From: Amyelois transitella
Lineage: Eukaryota; Arthropoda; Insecta; Lepidoptera; Pyralidae
Assembly (NCBI RefSeq): GCF_032362555.1
Contig: NC_083525.1
Span: forward strand, 7,859,501 to 7,923,500
Length of the DNA: 64,000 nucleotides
Direction: 5' to 3'
A model generated the notes under the pieces. It searched no databases. It was given only the letters and a program-made list of their open reading frames with translations, and had not been told where the DNA came from. Both the position numbers and the translations under genes were made by a program. This document shows positions 10,806-63,525 of this stretch, in pieces; the stretch's first letter is position 1, and the number at the start of each line of letters is the position of its first letter.

Positions 10806-12290
10806 ATTTCTCGTGGTTTGTGTGAAGTTTCATATCCCGTTCCAGTTTTGCCATGTCGCTTTCACAGAGGGGAATGATAGGTACCTATTCTATTATATAT
10901 ATTTTTTAATTTTTATAACGTAATAAGAAATTGAAACATTGTAAAGCAGAAATTTTTGCACATGGTGTACAGAGACCAACGTAATTTTGCGAGTTTTGTG
11001 TTAGAAACGCAATCGAAGACAACTCAAAATGAGACAAATAGGTACCTACTCAAATTCAATTTGAGAATTAGTGATTTCCTTTCGAGCATGGGTGTCAAAT
11101 ACGTAGGTAGGTAACTGTTTCGTCACATCGATATCGACTGAAATTAATGTGTTTAAAAAAAATCTGTGAATCACCAATTAAAAAATAGACCGTGAAAACT
11201 AGCTAAAGTACTTTTTAATTAATAATCGTGTACTTTAAGTCTCTTTTCTACCTGAATAACTAAAACCTTACCGGTAAATCGAATCGATGAAATATTGTTT
11301 GGGAATTCAGACCTTTGCAATAATAATCAAACCAATGTACCTAAATTCACGTTTTTCACAACACGACTTAAAAAATGAGACTTATTTTTTTTATGTTGTT
11401 ACATTTCCTCTGTCTGCACTTGTCACACTCCCAATAATGTAACACAGGGACAATATCAAAATATCAATTTTATATTATGTAAATGTGGCTAAAAATATAT
11501 ATATTTTAAAAATAATGTAACCGTTAATAAAGCTAGGTGGAAGACTTTTATTGGGAAAAAATGCTATTTATTTTATTAAATGAACTTTTTTCCTATAAAG
11601 GTACCTACGAACACATGTTGTGATATAGGTACATAGGTTCTAATTCGCATTCTTCGTACGTCTGGCTGCTCGAGCATTTCTTATTCTTCCTACAAGTCAG
11701 GAACATTTAAATACTCAAATCCACAGCATCAACTCAGAAGAAATGTTAAAAGTAAATTCAAGTTTTTTTAAACTATTTTTGTGCCAGTTTTACATATATA
11801 CAGCACACTAGCTTTGATTGCATCACCTTAGCGAGTATTCTCAGTGCCACCTACCTACGCATTACGTCCTGTCTCAACTCCCAAGGTCTTTAGAATGCTA
11901 GACGTTCGGTCACGTAATCAGCAGAAAATAGGATCATTAGAAAACAATCAACGTTAGACATAATTAATATCAAAGGCACATTAAGCTCCCGAACTATTAT
12001 TCCGTTCTATAAGTAGGTTTCGGTTCGGTACGATTATGGTTAACTAACTGTCATGTGCCACCATAAAAAATATATCTTTAAATGCACTCACGTCCAGCGT
12101 ATTTTTTGCAAACGGCCAATTAAATACAAAACCAAAATTTTAAGTGGCCCAAACCCGTTCCGTTCTTAATTGATATCTCGAAACCGTTACAGAATACCTA
12201 CCCATAGCAAGGATGTATAGAATACTCCCATTTACGCCAACTTATCCAATTCGCAATGCCAAACAAGTTCGAATTTCGAATCGAATATTT
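10806..12290. other. Intergenic, nothing recognised
   Basis: Low-complexity AT-rich sequence with further TAGGTACCTA-like palindromes (near 10876, 11038 and 11586). No domain or repeat of known type. Confidence 0.5.
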
Positions 12291-15808: not shown

Positions 15809-16785
15809 ATGAGTAAAATATTTGCGTTTGAATAAAATATTATGAATAGACCTAATGAAGATTTCTATTATTATTATTTTAATTTTGTTCTTAAAAAAGG
15901 AAGTTCGTAACAGCTAGTCTTACATAAAATAAAACCACACAGATTGTCTTGGCAAGCGGTAACGACCACGTTGGCAAGGTTGTCAATTCGAACGCCATGC
16001 TCGAATTTAAAAAAATAACCAGCCAAGTGCGTGTCGGATTATCCATGGTATAAAATTTTAATATTTTAATGAAAATTTTAATGATTACTATTACAATGTC
16101 GTATTAAAGCCTGAAAATTAATAGTACTTACTGGTTTCAAAACAAAAAAAAACACATTTATGTAGGTATTACTAATTAATAGTATAATTGGTGTTAAAAA
16201 TAAGCACTCGATCGTAAAAAAAAAAACTTTTTATTCCTTTTTAAATCTCGAATGCAATCGAGTTTTCACTCGATCGCATTTATGGAATATTCAAAAACGT
16301 TAAGTATTGCATGAAATCGTTTCTTCGAAAAGCGTGTCAAGAGCATTTTTATTATATATATTTTTTTTTATTATCGATTCGATGCCACGGTTGGAAATGC
16401 GAGTCGATTGAGTCAACCTCGGCTGAGTCACGGTCGCGAATCGCTAATCGAAGAAGTGAAAATGATTTCCAAAATTACTTCAACCCGAAGAACTCTGTGT
16501 TTTTTTTAAATTTCGGTCCTAGAGAGGTGCTTTTTGCGTAAAAAATATATTTCGGGTATAATACACCAACTTTACTCCCGATTCTAAGCACCACATGATT
16601 CTTATGTATGTAATGCTACGCAGATAACGTCATAAAAGTGTATTTTTTAATTTTATTTATTCCTAAAGTCAAAAAATTTCTATCGTTTCAATGTAAGGTC
16701 TCTCTGTCCTCTCTCTGTATATAATAACACTATGTGAAACTGGGGTTATTCACAAACGGTGATAATATTTTAAAGGTAAAACAAA
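15809..16785. other. Intergenic with one small hairpin
   Basis: No gene. A 12-bp inverted repeat with one mismatch (aatgcaatcgag at 16251-16262; ctcgatcgcatt at 16269-16280) encloses a 6-base loop. A scrap of the ccaagtgcg SINE family is at 16018-16050. Confidence 0.55.
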
Positions 16786-17277
16786 AATAGTTTAAAAAAA
16801 ACTAAAAAACTACGCTTTTATTGCTAATCAAACTAAAAAATAGAAAATAAAAATTAATGACAAAGGAATTCAGTAGTAGCAAGTCGAACAATCAGTTATA
16901 GTCAGTTGTAGTAGTAATTACCTCGGATTAAAATTATAACAAAATTAAATTTATAAACAAAACAATTTAAATCAGAGTAAAAAGCGTGGGGTGCCTGATG
17001 TAGTAAATATTAAAATCATTCTATTAGCATATATTTATGACAAGAGAGTTATGAAAATGAAGTAAAATGCACCCCACGCTTTTTACTCTGATTTAAATTG
17101 TTTTGTTTATAAATTTAATTTTGTTATAATTTTAATCCGAGGTAATTACTACTACAACTGACTATAACTGATTGTTCGACTTGCTACTACTGAATTCCTT
17201 TGTCATTAATTTTTATTTTCTATTTTTTAGTTTGATTAGCAATAAAAGCGTAGTTTTTTAGTTTTTTTTAAACTATT
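16786..17277. repeat. Perfect 209-bp inverted repeat with 74-bp spacer
   Basis: The arms at 16786-16994 and 17069-17277 are exact reverse complements over all 209 bases, checked base by base. The spacer is 16995-17068. Immediately to the right, 17278-17340 repeats the outer end of the right arm in direct orientation with several substitutions. There is no open reading frame of note. It may be a foldback MITE or a hairpin RNA locus. Confidence 0.95.
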
Positions 17278-17504
17278 ATTTATTTTCTATTTTTTAGTTC
17301 GATTTGCAATAAAACGGGTAGTTTTTTAGTTTTTTTATACAATTATTTTTTGGAAGTTAACACTTCTGGTATAACTATCTTACTAGAAAAGACTTTTGCA
17401 ACCATGCGCCCATCGCCGGAGGTTTTCACAACTAACTTTCTTAAAGTTATATGTGGCCTGATTGGATTAAATCTCATAATATTCTCATCATCATGATTCT
17501 TTTT

Positions 17505-17650
17505 AAGGCGATGGGCTTGCAACCTGTCACTATTTGAATCTCAATTCTATCTTAAAGCCAAATAGCTGAACGTGGCCTATCAGTCTTTACAAGACTGTTG
17601 GCTCTGTCTACCCCGCAAGGGATATAGACGTGATTATATGTATGTATGAT
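17505..17650 (+). repeat. Family A SINE-like element (3' half)
   Basis: It begins at aaggcgatgggcttgcaacc and ends in gacgtgattatatgtatgta. It is 5'-truncated. Confidence 0.85.
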
Positions 17651-18189
17651 GATTGTTAAACCCAGTTGAAAAGAATTTTATAGTGATAAATCACTGTTAA
17701 TAATATTTTTGACTATCCAGCAAACATAATAATTTTCGATTGTGGCCTTGCCAGGAATCAAACCACAAGATTAAGAGGCAGATTGATACAGGAACAAAAA
17801 TATTTCAAACATACCTCCACTGCCTTTACAACCAGGAACGCAACAAAGTTTATCTGAAGACATCGTGGCACTTTTGTTGTAAAATCTGTCTTTCACAAAA
17901 ACAAACACAAACTTGGGACTCCTATCTCAAATAATAAGGTACTTTTTACAGGAGTCCTATCTCAAAATATCTGCACAACACAGTAAACACAGTCAGGGTC
18001 CAATCTCAGATGATAAAATCACACGAATATCCGGAAGAACAAAGCTCGACTGAACGGAACATTCCAAACTCCAAATAACGACAAGTTATCAGCACAAAAC
18101 AAAGTGCAAATAGGTAAATACACAGGCACCGGTAAAAAACAACAGAAAGAAAGTTTACAGGTGTTCGAATCGAATTCAATCAAAACTTA
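17651..18189. other. Intergenic, nothing recognised
   Basis: No motif-bearing frame. The 64-codon frame at 17740-17934 is not supported as a gene. Confidence 0.5.
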
Positions 18190-18197
18190 CTGCAAAA

Positions 18198-18843
18198 TAG
18201 GAATGTGAAAAAAAAATCGATTATGGAAAAAATCGATTAAAAATCGATTTTTTTAAAGGAAAAATCGATTTTTATACATGATTTTTTAAAAATTAATAAT
18301 CGATTAAAAATCGATTTTTATAATCATACAATAAATGCACTCCAACATTACGTTTTTGTCTTCTGGCTTGGAGCCCGGAACGCGAACTGCCAAAGAATAC
18401 TATCATAGCTCCATAATATTACATCAACGCCATCTGTGCATTCTTTCTGTGCTCTTAAAACAGTTTAGATAATTAATTTAATCAAACATTCTCTAGATGG
18501 AATTAGTCGATGAACAGTATTTTACCGACATTCGGTTGATATTTTATTCATTATTCGTTGCTGAAACTTCATTTTTCAAACTTGATTGTTAAAAACTTTA
18601 ATTTGTGTTGATTTTATAAGAACTTTCTATTTCTGTTGTTTATTTTTAATGAATAAATCTATTGATATAATGTAAATGGCGTTTATTTTGACATAAATTG
18701 AAAAATTAGGAAAAAATCTATCAATATAATAAAATCGATTATTTTCTTAAGAAAAATCGATTATTTGTTAATCGATTTTTCATACTTAAAAAATAAATCG
18801 ATTATATAAAAATCGATTTTTTATCAGCAATGTCACATCCCTA
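18198..18843. mobile_element. Non-autonomous hAT (Ac-like) element with AATCGATT arrays
   Basis: The ends are TAGGAATGTGA on the left and TAGGGATGTGA on the reverse complement of the right. The element is flanked by the perfect 8-bp direct repeat ctgcaaaa at 18190-18197 and 18844-18851. Eight-base duplications and TAGGGATG-type ends fit hAT elements. Inside, AATCGATT occurs six times near the left end (about 18213-18320) and five times near the right end (about 18731-18822). The middle is AT-rich and noncoding. Confidence 0.88.
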
Positions 18844-18851
18844 CTGCAAAA

Positions 18852-21800
18852 CTTATTTGACATAAAAAAACTGTCACTCATTTTCCCAACGAGTATTACA
18901 GTGTTGCTATTATAAATAGGCAAAAGATACCTAATGTTAATTCAAGAATTGCATTAATATGTTAAATACGTATTAAATATCGCAAAGTTCTGTAGGTAGT
19001 AACTTTATTCTTGTATTTTTGTAAATTTAGTTGTTCAATTTTCATTTATTACTTTTGTTTTATTACTTATATATTTTTTATTGTTTTAAAATATTCTACT
19101 AATTCTACTATGGTTTCTAATGGTAATTCTAAATGGAGCAATGCGATGAAATAAAGAAGCCTCAGGTTAATAGTAACATTATATGGAAATATATTACATC
19201 TCTTTTTGACTCATTATACGTCAGAACTTCTTGGTTTCTTGTATGGAGATTACTGGCACTGGTGCTATCTCTGTCTCTCTTACTCTCATACGAAGGATCT
19301 AAAAATGAATTTATTAATCCTGGCAGTTTTAATAAGGATAATGAGAAACTCTTATCAAAATATTGCATTGTCATCGGTCCTTGATACGTGTGCAAAGTTC
19401 CAAGTTCATCAGACGTTTAGAAATCAGTGAAAATTAAGCTCAAAGATTCCGTTACATACATACATACATACATACATACAACCCAAGCTAATAAAAGCGT
19501 AGTAAAAAGGGAAAAGTCATACCCACGTTCGTATTTATTGCCTCCGTAGGCCTCTCTTAATACGGTAAGGTACTTCGGCCGTTATTCACTTAGCAATTTC
19601 AATCACGTTCATACACATGACATCACTTTACATAATTAGAACAATTACAAAACTTTATTATTTGTTTACGAACAGGAAAACCTTCCCGATGAGACACGTA
19701 TGTGCTAAATATGCAAATTGTTTCGCGCCAAAAAGGCAATGAACTTGTTTTTCCGTCCGTTCCGTTTCACGCACAGTCGCACCGCGCACCTTGTTTTGAT
19801 TTTGGCTCGATTACGCTCCGTTTCATTTTATTTCCAAAATGGTATACCGAAATTGATACAATTGAAAAAAAAAACCAGTTGCACACTAAAAAGTAGCCTC
19901 GGTCATTCTATAGGTAATCATTCTCTTTTTAAATAGTCACTTTCGTGTTTAGATCATCAGAATATGTTGTGAAAGTTATTTTACAACTTCACTGATGTTA
20001 GTTATAATCTATACGATTTATGCGCTATCAATCGATCCTGTACTCCTTAGACAAGTGCTCTTTCGACATACATATTGTACCGTACCATTTAGGACCATTG
20101 TCGATGGCGTACCTATCATTTATATCGTGTGTTCTCCTCATATAATAGATGACTAACTGAGAAAGGCTTATAGACTTCAGATCGTTCTTTTAACCGATGG
20201 GCTTGCAGGTTACAACAGTTGCAAGTCGGTCACTATCTCTGACGTAGAAGATAGATTTAAACAAAATGGATGAAATATTGTTTACCTTTGTAGGTGCTAT
20301 TATTAATTCTGTGCCATTACCACTCGGGGTTGGAACTGTAACGGTAAAACCGGTAAGAGAGCCATTGTCCCTACTCGAATGCAATCTATAGAGCGCTGCA
20401 GCCCACTCCGCTCTGTGCTCTGTCAGTGTAACCCAAGCGAGACAACTCAGTGTGGGCAGTTGCCCGGTTTTATCTTGAATGCATCGTTGAGAATAAAAGA
20501 GAAGTTATTTTAAGAAAAAAACTCATTAAACTCACTAATGTTGTCATTTTTTTTTGTGACGTAAGAACCTTAAAATAAAAGTACAATTTCCAACCGCTCT
20601 ACAGGCAAGTTCAATCTGCCACAAAGGTAGATCAGACCTTTAGGAGAAAACAGTCTACTCCTTAAGGCCCCGGGTACAAGACAGTTTCTTACAACTGCGA
20701 ATATGATTTTATATGATTATATGATTATTTGTTACGGGCATATTGTGTTATTGGAAAAGAGATGCTACTTGCTAAAGGTAAGTGCGTAGTACTAGATAAA
20801 GAGGCAATGTTTCTTAGAATACGTAATCCGCCATTTTGTGGCAGCGGCCATTTTGACTTTCAAACTTTTAAATTTTGTAACCGGCCAGGAATTTATTTCT
20901 TTTTTTTTTTTATTGTTACCAACCTGTGCATCGGCTGAGTCCTTTGTGTGTACTGCGCCATGATCGGTGACAAGCGCGCATGGCTAGGCGACGCGCATGC
21001 CGTGCTTCGCGCCGCCGCTAGCTTCGCGCCATCTTGCGCCACAGACACTACACTGCACTGTCACTACACACACAGCCACTGGCACAACCTGTTGACAATG
21101 ACGCTGCATTAGTAAGGGAAGAGAATCTTCATGAGAGAAAGAAGTTGGGAAGATTTGTGGTTGTTTTTCAGAGGGCTATACTATTATTTCCTTGACACTA
21201 ACCAAAGCAATACATTTATCAAAGGATAGATCCCCAAAAGCAGCCAAAGGTACCACGTTAGTTTTAGAGTCTAAAGACGAATGAACGGGCAATGGTACAC
21301 GACCAGCATAACTCTTGATTACATTATTTTTCTGATTTCCTGTTGCCATTTGCCCCAGACTTTGAACCTGGGGTCCATATTGACCACGATTCAGAGAGTA
21401 AAAACGGCAAAGATATTCCTATATAGGGTATATGGGAATAACTTTGCCTTTTTTACTTTGGGCCTAACTTTACAATGAACTAACAAGGTTGTCGCACAAT
21501 GTTTCTATTCGTACTCCTACGACATCCAAGACAATGGAGACGGAGTGGACCTATTCTAAAGTAAGAGTGAAAACAAAGGTTATTCGAGATGATTTTGTCA
21601 GCGGGCAACCCTTACTTCATAAACTAAAGACCAAATTTTCCACATAGTTATGCGTCTGGAAAAAATGCGTGCGTTTGTAATAAACTAAATTTGACTGATA
21701 AAATGTACTAAATTCCTAATTTACCTGTTTACGTAGATTGTTAAATAACGTGGAATACCACAGAACATTCGATTAAGGAAAAATAAACAGACGTACATTT

Positions 21801-52367: not shown

Positions 52368-63525
<11,158 letters not shown>

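Follow-up and report, generated by a model that had tools for sequence, protein, structure and literature searches.

The window, a 64,000-nucleotide stretch of the Amyelois transitella genome (C21:7859501-7923500 of 327 Mb), is rich in transposable elements; Pfam recognizes in it a hAT-type transposase, a reverse transcriptase, and a BESS-domain frame, while a search of 17 window frames found no domain near the palindrome that is the subject of this analysis. The palindrome forms one end of a mobile element with the following features (strand is given where one is assigned):

16786..19503, minus strand: whole mobile element, with its 5' end at about 19503 and its palindromic 3' end at 16786, split by a later insert at 18198-18843
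16786..16994, minus strand: left palindrome arm, 209 nt, the outermost part and 3' end; exact reverse complement of 17069-17277, with dispersed copies
16788..16804: stem-loop TAGTTT-AAAAA-AAACTA, 17 nt, at the 3' terminus, read from the sequence
16809..16822: terminal inverted repeat, 3' side (ACTACGCTTTTATT); 14-nt exact inverted match to the right end
16995..17068: spacer, 74 nt, of this length in 65 of 70 copies and inverted in 7 of 70
17069..17277, minus strand: right palindrome arm, 209 nt; exact reverse complement of 16786-16994
17274..17340, minus strand: "third copy", a 67-nt tandem duplicate of the outer arm unit 17207-17273, found in 39 of 39 copies compared
17495..17659: SINE-like segment within the element, compared in all 39 copies, with many relatives elsewhere in the window
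18198..18843: hAT-like insertion, 646 bp, with ends TAGGAATGTGA...TCACATCCCTA and an 8-bp duplication, CTGCAAAA
19453..19480: TACA/TATG microsatellite adjoining the 5' end
19490..19503: terminal inverted repeat, 5' side (AATAAAAGCGTAGT), with an A run after it; matches the 3' side exactly, in inverted orientation, over 14 nt

Among the perfect inverted repeats of the window whose arms lie within 5 kb of each other, the 209-nt arms are the longest, the runner-up measuring 68 nt. Alignment confirms the earlier description of two arms that are exact reverse complements around a 74-nt spacer, and exact pairing ends precisely at 16786-16994 / 17069-17277. The predicted RNA fold of 16778-17285 reaches −329.8 kcal/mol, as compared with an average of −79.4 for shuffles, and the 17-nt stem-loop sits within this long palindrome, a short 3'-end palindrome of the kind expected of HINE and DINE-1-like elements. 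No Rfam family reached its cut-off in the palindrome region; weak hits (e.g., MIR475, 35.4 bits against a cut-off of 70) were read as matches to hairpins in general. At 11763-11782, 20 nt are identical to a stretch of the outer left arm and its flank; their score of 40 is marginal, the highest among 40 shuffles being 38.

The earlier note had described a diverged direct repeat beside the right arm as a decayed third copy of its outer end. The repeat itself is real, spanning 67 nt (17274-17340) and aligning in tandem register with 17207-17273 at 60 identities, 6 mismatches, and 2 gaps; the decay is not, because all 39 compared copies contain the 67-nt repeat, which is thus an ordinary part of the element and no decayed relic. 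Similarly, the interval 16786..17340 given for the feature does enclose the palindrome, but the mobile element is larger and reaches about 19503. Homology to the window in 39 oriented copies runs from about 16786 (later where truncated) to about 18197, and from about 18842 to, mostly, 19480-19510, delimiting a minus-strand element of about 2.1 kb. The hAT-like insert is private to the window copy and is absent from this site in the other 39 copies. On the minus strand the termini read TTTTTACTACGC... and ...AAACTATT, the 5' end of the window element reading TTTTTACTACGCTTTTATTAGC. The exact 14-nt match between the two ends of the window copy falls within the 12-15 bp of HINE/DINE-1-like subterminal repeats, and these inverted repeats are asymmetrical.

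A genome search with the arm sequence, which the earlier note had proposed, returned at least 119 matches from the 40 candidates scored of 504, on contigs C1 to C14, and revealed a dispersed family carrying both arms, typically in opposite orientation with starts 283 nt apart. Additionally, the exact right-end 24-mer occurs 486 times in the genome (227 + 259), and its reversed control 0 times. Perfect arms adjoining a diverged repeat could reflect a one-off inverted duplication of recent origin, made by template switching, or an error of assembly; the earlier note had also raised a one-off duplication or misassembly. The numerous copies dispersed in the genome, which share arms, spacer, and junctions, together with the 486 right ends, contradict this reading and leave it virtually no credence. 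Outside this genome, palindrome parts, the arm-spacer junction, and the repeat unit gave 0 matches as DNA patterns in viral_contigs; the repeat unit gave 0 in genome_contigs, the SINE-like segment 0 in both collections, and blastn against phages and plasmids 0. A literature search for the sequence letters found none.

Two sets of copies were assembled. The first comprises 40 places from the arm search and was hence chosen by arm identity; the spacer is present in all 40, and in 39 the sequence to the right of the palindrome gave the orientation (the exception being L018). To keep the arms out of the choice, the second set was drawn from right ends: of the 486, the first 70 were gone through, 9 already known copies and 1 overlapping neighbour were set aside, and 60 were taken as 800-bp stretches at the expected place of the palindrome. 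Both arms were found at 31 of these 60 right ends, one arm at 3, and no arm match of at least 100 nt there at 26, leaving out the 9 known copies having lowered the palindrome-bearing share. Eight of the 26 armless right ends were read further: L109, L115, and L116 have palindrome parts at a different distance, L112 begins at 17359 and lacks the palindrome, and the other four are body pieces only. Some copies are deletion derivatives; L115 consists of a single arm joined to the body, and in L109 and L018 the palindrome is joined directly, or almost so, to the 5' end. Beyond the arms, copies of the first set carry 188 private substitutions in 56,124 sites (U2, mid, and SINE blocks). With the Heliconius and silkworm mutation rates quoted in PMC10048334, this would correspond to an age of about 0.8 to 1.2 million generations, an estimate that leans young, since these copies were selected for arm identity.

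The two ends of the element behave differently. The right end is uniform, reading ...CCCAAGCTAATAAAAGCGTAG and then mostly TAAAAA in 35 loci and the window; it was found in 35 of 39 loci, and not within the fetched stretch of L031, L037, L038, and L046. The left, palindromic end, counted only in the 36 copies whose right end was found, starts with the first arm position in 25 and between positions 7 and 50 in 11. No target-site duplication is apparent in these 36 copies: the longest word common to a pair of flanks is on average 5.22 nt in own pairs and 5.22 nt in swapped pairs, and 100 of 200 permutations attain the own-pair value. A strict search for empty sites recovered 0 of 36. A looser search flagged 8 of 36, among which L016 and L043 are clear and L011 and L045 weaker (72-75% identity), all four without duplication; the flags for L022, L030, L034, and the window were dropped as too weak or as self-matches. 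The 25-nt flanks have A frequencies of 0.46 and 0.45, as compared with 0.32 farther out, though on both sides part of these 25 nt may belong to the ends of the element itself. Viewed from the other strand, these A-rich flanks correspond to the T-rich target and the T-rich, variable-length termini of HINE/DINE-1-like elements. The absence of target-site duplication in the 36 copies likewise agrees with the Helitron superfamily.

The same data bear on two more conventional interpretations. High copy number and long, near-identical arms would suit an ordinary MITE or a foldback DNA transposon with long terminal inverted repeats. However, the 2.1-kb element has its palindrome at one end and not at both, the few empty sites show no duplication, and the same palindrome follows a RepHel frame; bounding terminal inverted repeats combined with target-site duplication were not found (39 copies; 36 for the duplication). 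We therefore regard this explanation as very improbable, in keeping with the earlier remark that the feature does not look like an ordinary MITE. A 5'-truncated retroposon with an A-rich 3' end (AATAAA and then TAGTAAAAA) would explain why one end is uniform, with a short A run, and the other variably truncated, but would leave the missing target-site duplication, the inverted match between the ends, and the RepHel frame beside the same palindrome unexplained, and appears hardly more credible.

The RepHel frame lies on contig C11. Searching the genome for PF14214 (Helitron_like_N) gave 73 matches, 59 of them on contig C32, where many are interrupted by stops; C32 may, at a guess, be a sex chromosome or otherwise heterochromatic. 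The C11 locus contains a 1908-codon open frame without stops, with DUF6570 in its first part, PF14214 at 94054-94455 (E 1.3e-24), and PIF1 (PF05970) at 95698-96345 (E 7.4e-31). By frame arithmetic on L118 and L120 the frame ends near C11:97098, so that the stretch behind the PIF1 match is no longer than some 250 codons, which would leave little room for a fused AP endonuclease. A complete palindrome, oriented as a 3' end, follows some 120 bp downstream, at about C11:97219-97698, placing a RepHel (Rep plus PIF1-type helicase) beside the element end at this one locus, as in the Helitron superfamily. Its 203-nt arms are identical to each other and flank a 74-nt spacer; compared with the window arm they differ by 5 substitutions, a 6-nt insertion, and a 12-nt deletion, with the same changes in both C11 arms.

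Between frame and palindrome, the C11 sequence matches the 2.1-kb element only over part of the 67-nt unit. Because this interval lacks the element body, the C11 palindrome is not a whole non-autonomous copy that landed there. Upstream of the frame lies another palindrome, truncated, with part of the element body before it; the 2.1-kb element may thus be the form stopped at the first terminator, and C11 the form running to the second. The C11 RepHel is a putative partner that could move the 2.1-kb family. By comparison, a Helitron on C17 has no element sequence in the 2.2 kb upstream of its RepHel frame.

Comparison with described rolling-circle elements favors the HINE and Helitron2 types. 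Thomas et al. report ends of this kind, a microsatellite, and a stem-loop in DINE-1-like rolling-circle elements (PMC4067079). Like the DINE-1-like elements and HINEs of Helentrons in that account, the family is non-autonomous and of high copy number, with 12-15 bp inverted repeats near its ends, a short 3' stem-loop, a microsatellite, T-rich termini and target, and no target-site duplication. Helentrons are described there with an AP endonuclease fused to the C-terminus of RepHel, for which the C11 frame would leave little space; Helitron2, shown from Chlamydomonas, has a single RepHel frame without endonuclease, an organization that C11 may have as well, and shares asymmetrical terminal inverted repeats and palindromic ends with the element in kind, sizes not being compared (PMC4067079). 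Canonical Helitron ends (5'-TC / CTRR-3', with insertion between A and T) were not found in the element. Helraiser and Helibat, too, have a RepHel, a 3' hairpin as terminator (a putative role for the present palindrome), and 3' truncation and read-through, although Helraiser is described with TC/CTAG ends and an AT target (PMC4778049). In Helraiser the 19-bp hairpin near the 3' end acts as the terminator, and its deletion raises truncation and read-through (PMC4778049). The palindrome at the present locus, 492 nt, is some 25 times longer than that 19-bp palindrome, and the near-perfect palindrome of the last ~490 nt likewise sets the element apart from mite HINEs, with their 5-10 bp palindromes (PMC4067079). 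These are the lengths of 3' palindromes described in the two sources; we do not claim that longer ones are absent from print.

The arms themselves were compared in 70 palindromes, of which the first set supplied 38 loci plus the window and the second set 31. Aligned arms are identical letter for letter in 18 of the 70. The palindromes split into group A (48) and group B (22, entirely from the second set), whose majority sequences are separated by eight differing events, each in both arms; a 12-nt deletion, for example, is found in both arms of 22/22 group B copies and of 0/48 in group A. The majority arms of group A show no mutual difference, and those of group B differ at two loop-proximal sites only. 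In the 31 second-set copies, departures from the group majority comprise 42 two-arm, 42 one-arm, and 4 differing events; subgroups have many of the changes in both arms in common. Among rare variants in these 31 copies (present in at most 2 copies), 14 occur in both arms and 23 in one. When arm partners were shuffled within groups, two-arm rare events averaged 0.32, with a maximum of 2 in 1000 shuffles. Because rare changes coincide in both arms far above this level, the arms appear to exchange sequence. In the first set, rare changes number 0 in both arms and 15 in one, as expected of copies chosen by arm identity; for the same reason arm substitution rates in this set are biased low and were not used as evidence of exchange.

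Taken together, the 12-nt deletion, the C11 arms, and the 14 rare two-arm events support conversion-like exchange as what keeps the arms alike, in line with the earlier suggestion of gene conversion. The excess of rare one-arm (23) over two-arm (14) events counts against perfection of the arms at each jump. At loop-proximal alignment columns 204 and 210 there are 13 and 23 one-arm cells, many in group B copies; because these one-arm differences recur in many copies, exchange does not take place at each jump, and a model in which each transposition makes the arms perfect was discarded. Relative to the body, 4 group A and 3 group B copies have an inverted spacer, including L044, which is otherwise rearranged.

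We conclude, with a probability of roughly 0.75, that the palindrome is the oversized rolling-circle terminator hairpin of a non-autonomous, Helitron2/HINE-like Helitron, with arms homogenized by exchange. The observations behind this reading are the dispersal of the family, its ends, the lack of target-site duplication, the palindrome following a RepHel frame at one locus, the concerted arms, and the spacer flips. The analogy with Helraiser, the terminal position of the palindrome, and variable left ends that look like 3' truncations lead us to read it as a terminator; we also infer a single-stranded intermediate, a molecular route of exchange, and C11 as the mover of the family. A RepHel such as the C11-encoded protein would move the non-autonomous element, which would be peeled off as a single strand; its ~490-nt 3' end would then fold into a hairpin and stop transposition, as an oversized counterpart of the short Helitron 3' hairpin. 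Template switching at the hairpin, or gene conversion inside the palindrome, could provide the exchange from arm to arm, and the same exchange may occasionally flip the spacer. Template switching has been described as able to create and keep perfect stems (PMC8794818), although there it was inferred in RNA genes, whereas the arms in question are ~200-nt arms of a transposon.

A further step is conceivable. Parvovirus telomeres have a fold-back, self-copying end that flips its loop. Rolling-circle transposition might be coupled to a comparable rolling-hairpin-like step, in which the folded ~490-nt end is copied on itself, correcting the arms and flipping the loop; we hold this to be a speculative and rather unlikely extension. 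If it were true, the 3' end would be a self-correcting terminator. Irrespective of this step, hundreds of copies with truncations, flips, and co-changing arms form a natural experiment on the role of the hairpin and on the rate of exchange between inverted repeats, and the family may reveal how the near-perfection of a palindrome can persist from one subfamily to another without each base being under selection. Helitrons are described as having a loosely defined termination, to which gene capture is attributed (PMC4778049).

A transcript of the palindrome could alternatively serve as a source of endogenous siRNA, yielding long dsRNA to be cut by Dicer-2 and silencing its own family or a target of the same sequence. 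The perfect 209-bp predicted stem would be suitable; endogenous siRNAs occur in Lepidoptera, where predicted hairpins of T. ni are reported to account for less than 4.6% of mapped non-transposon siRNAs (PMC5844692), and young Drosophila hpRNAs are described as capable of having TE-derived arms and partial local duplications (PMC10317233). However, no Rfam family is found at its cut-off in the region, and the structure is already accounted for as a transposon end. An siRNA role thus seems doubtful, though it can hold alongside the Helitron terminator.

Two minor features of the window complete the description. Inside the element, 19133-19381 contains an 83-residue open frame with a hydrophobic stretch, and a tandem array of about 12 copies of a 22-bp unit occupies 59524-59793.
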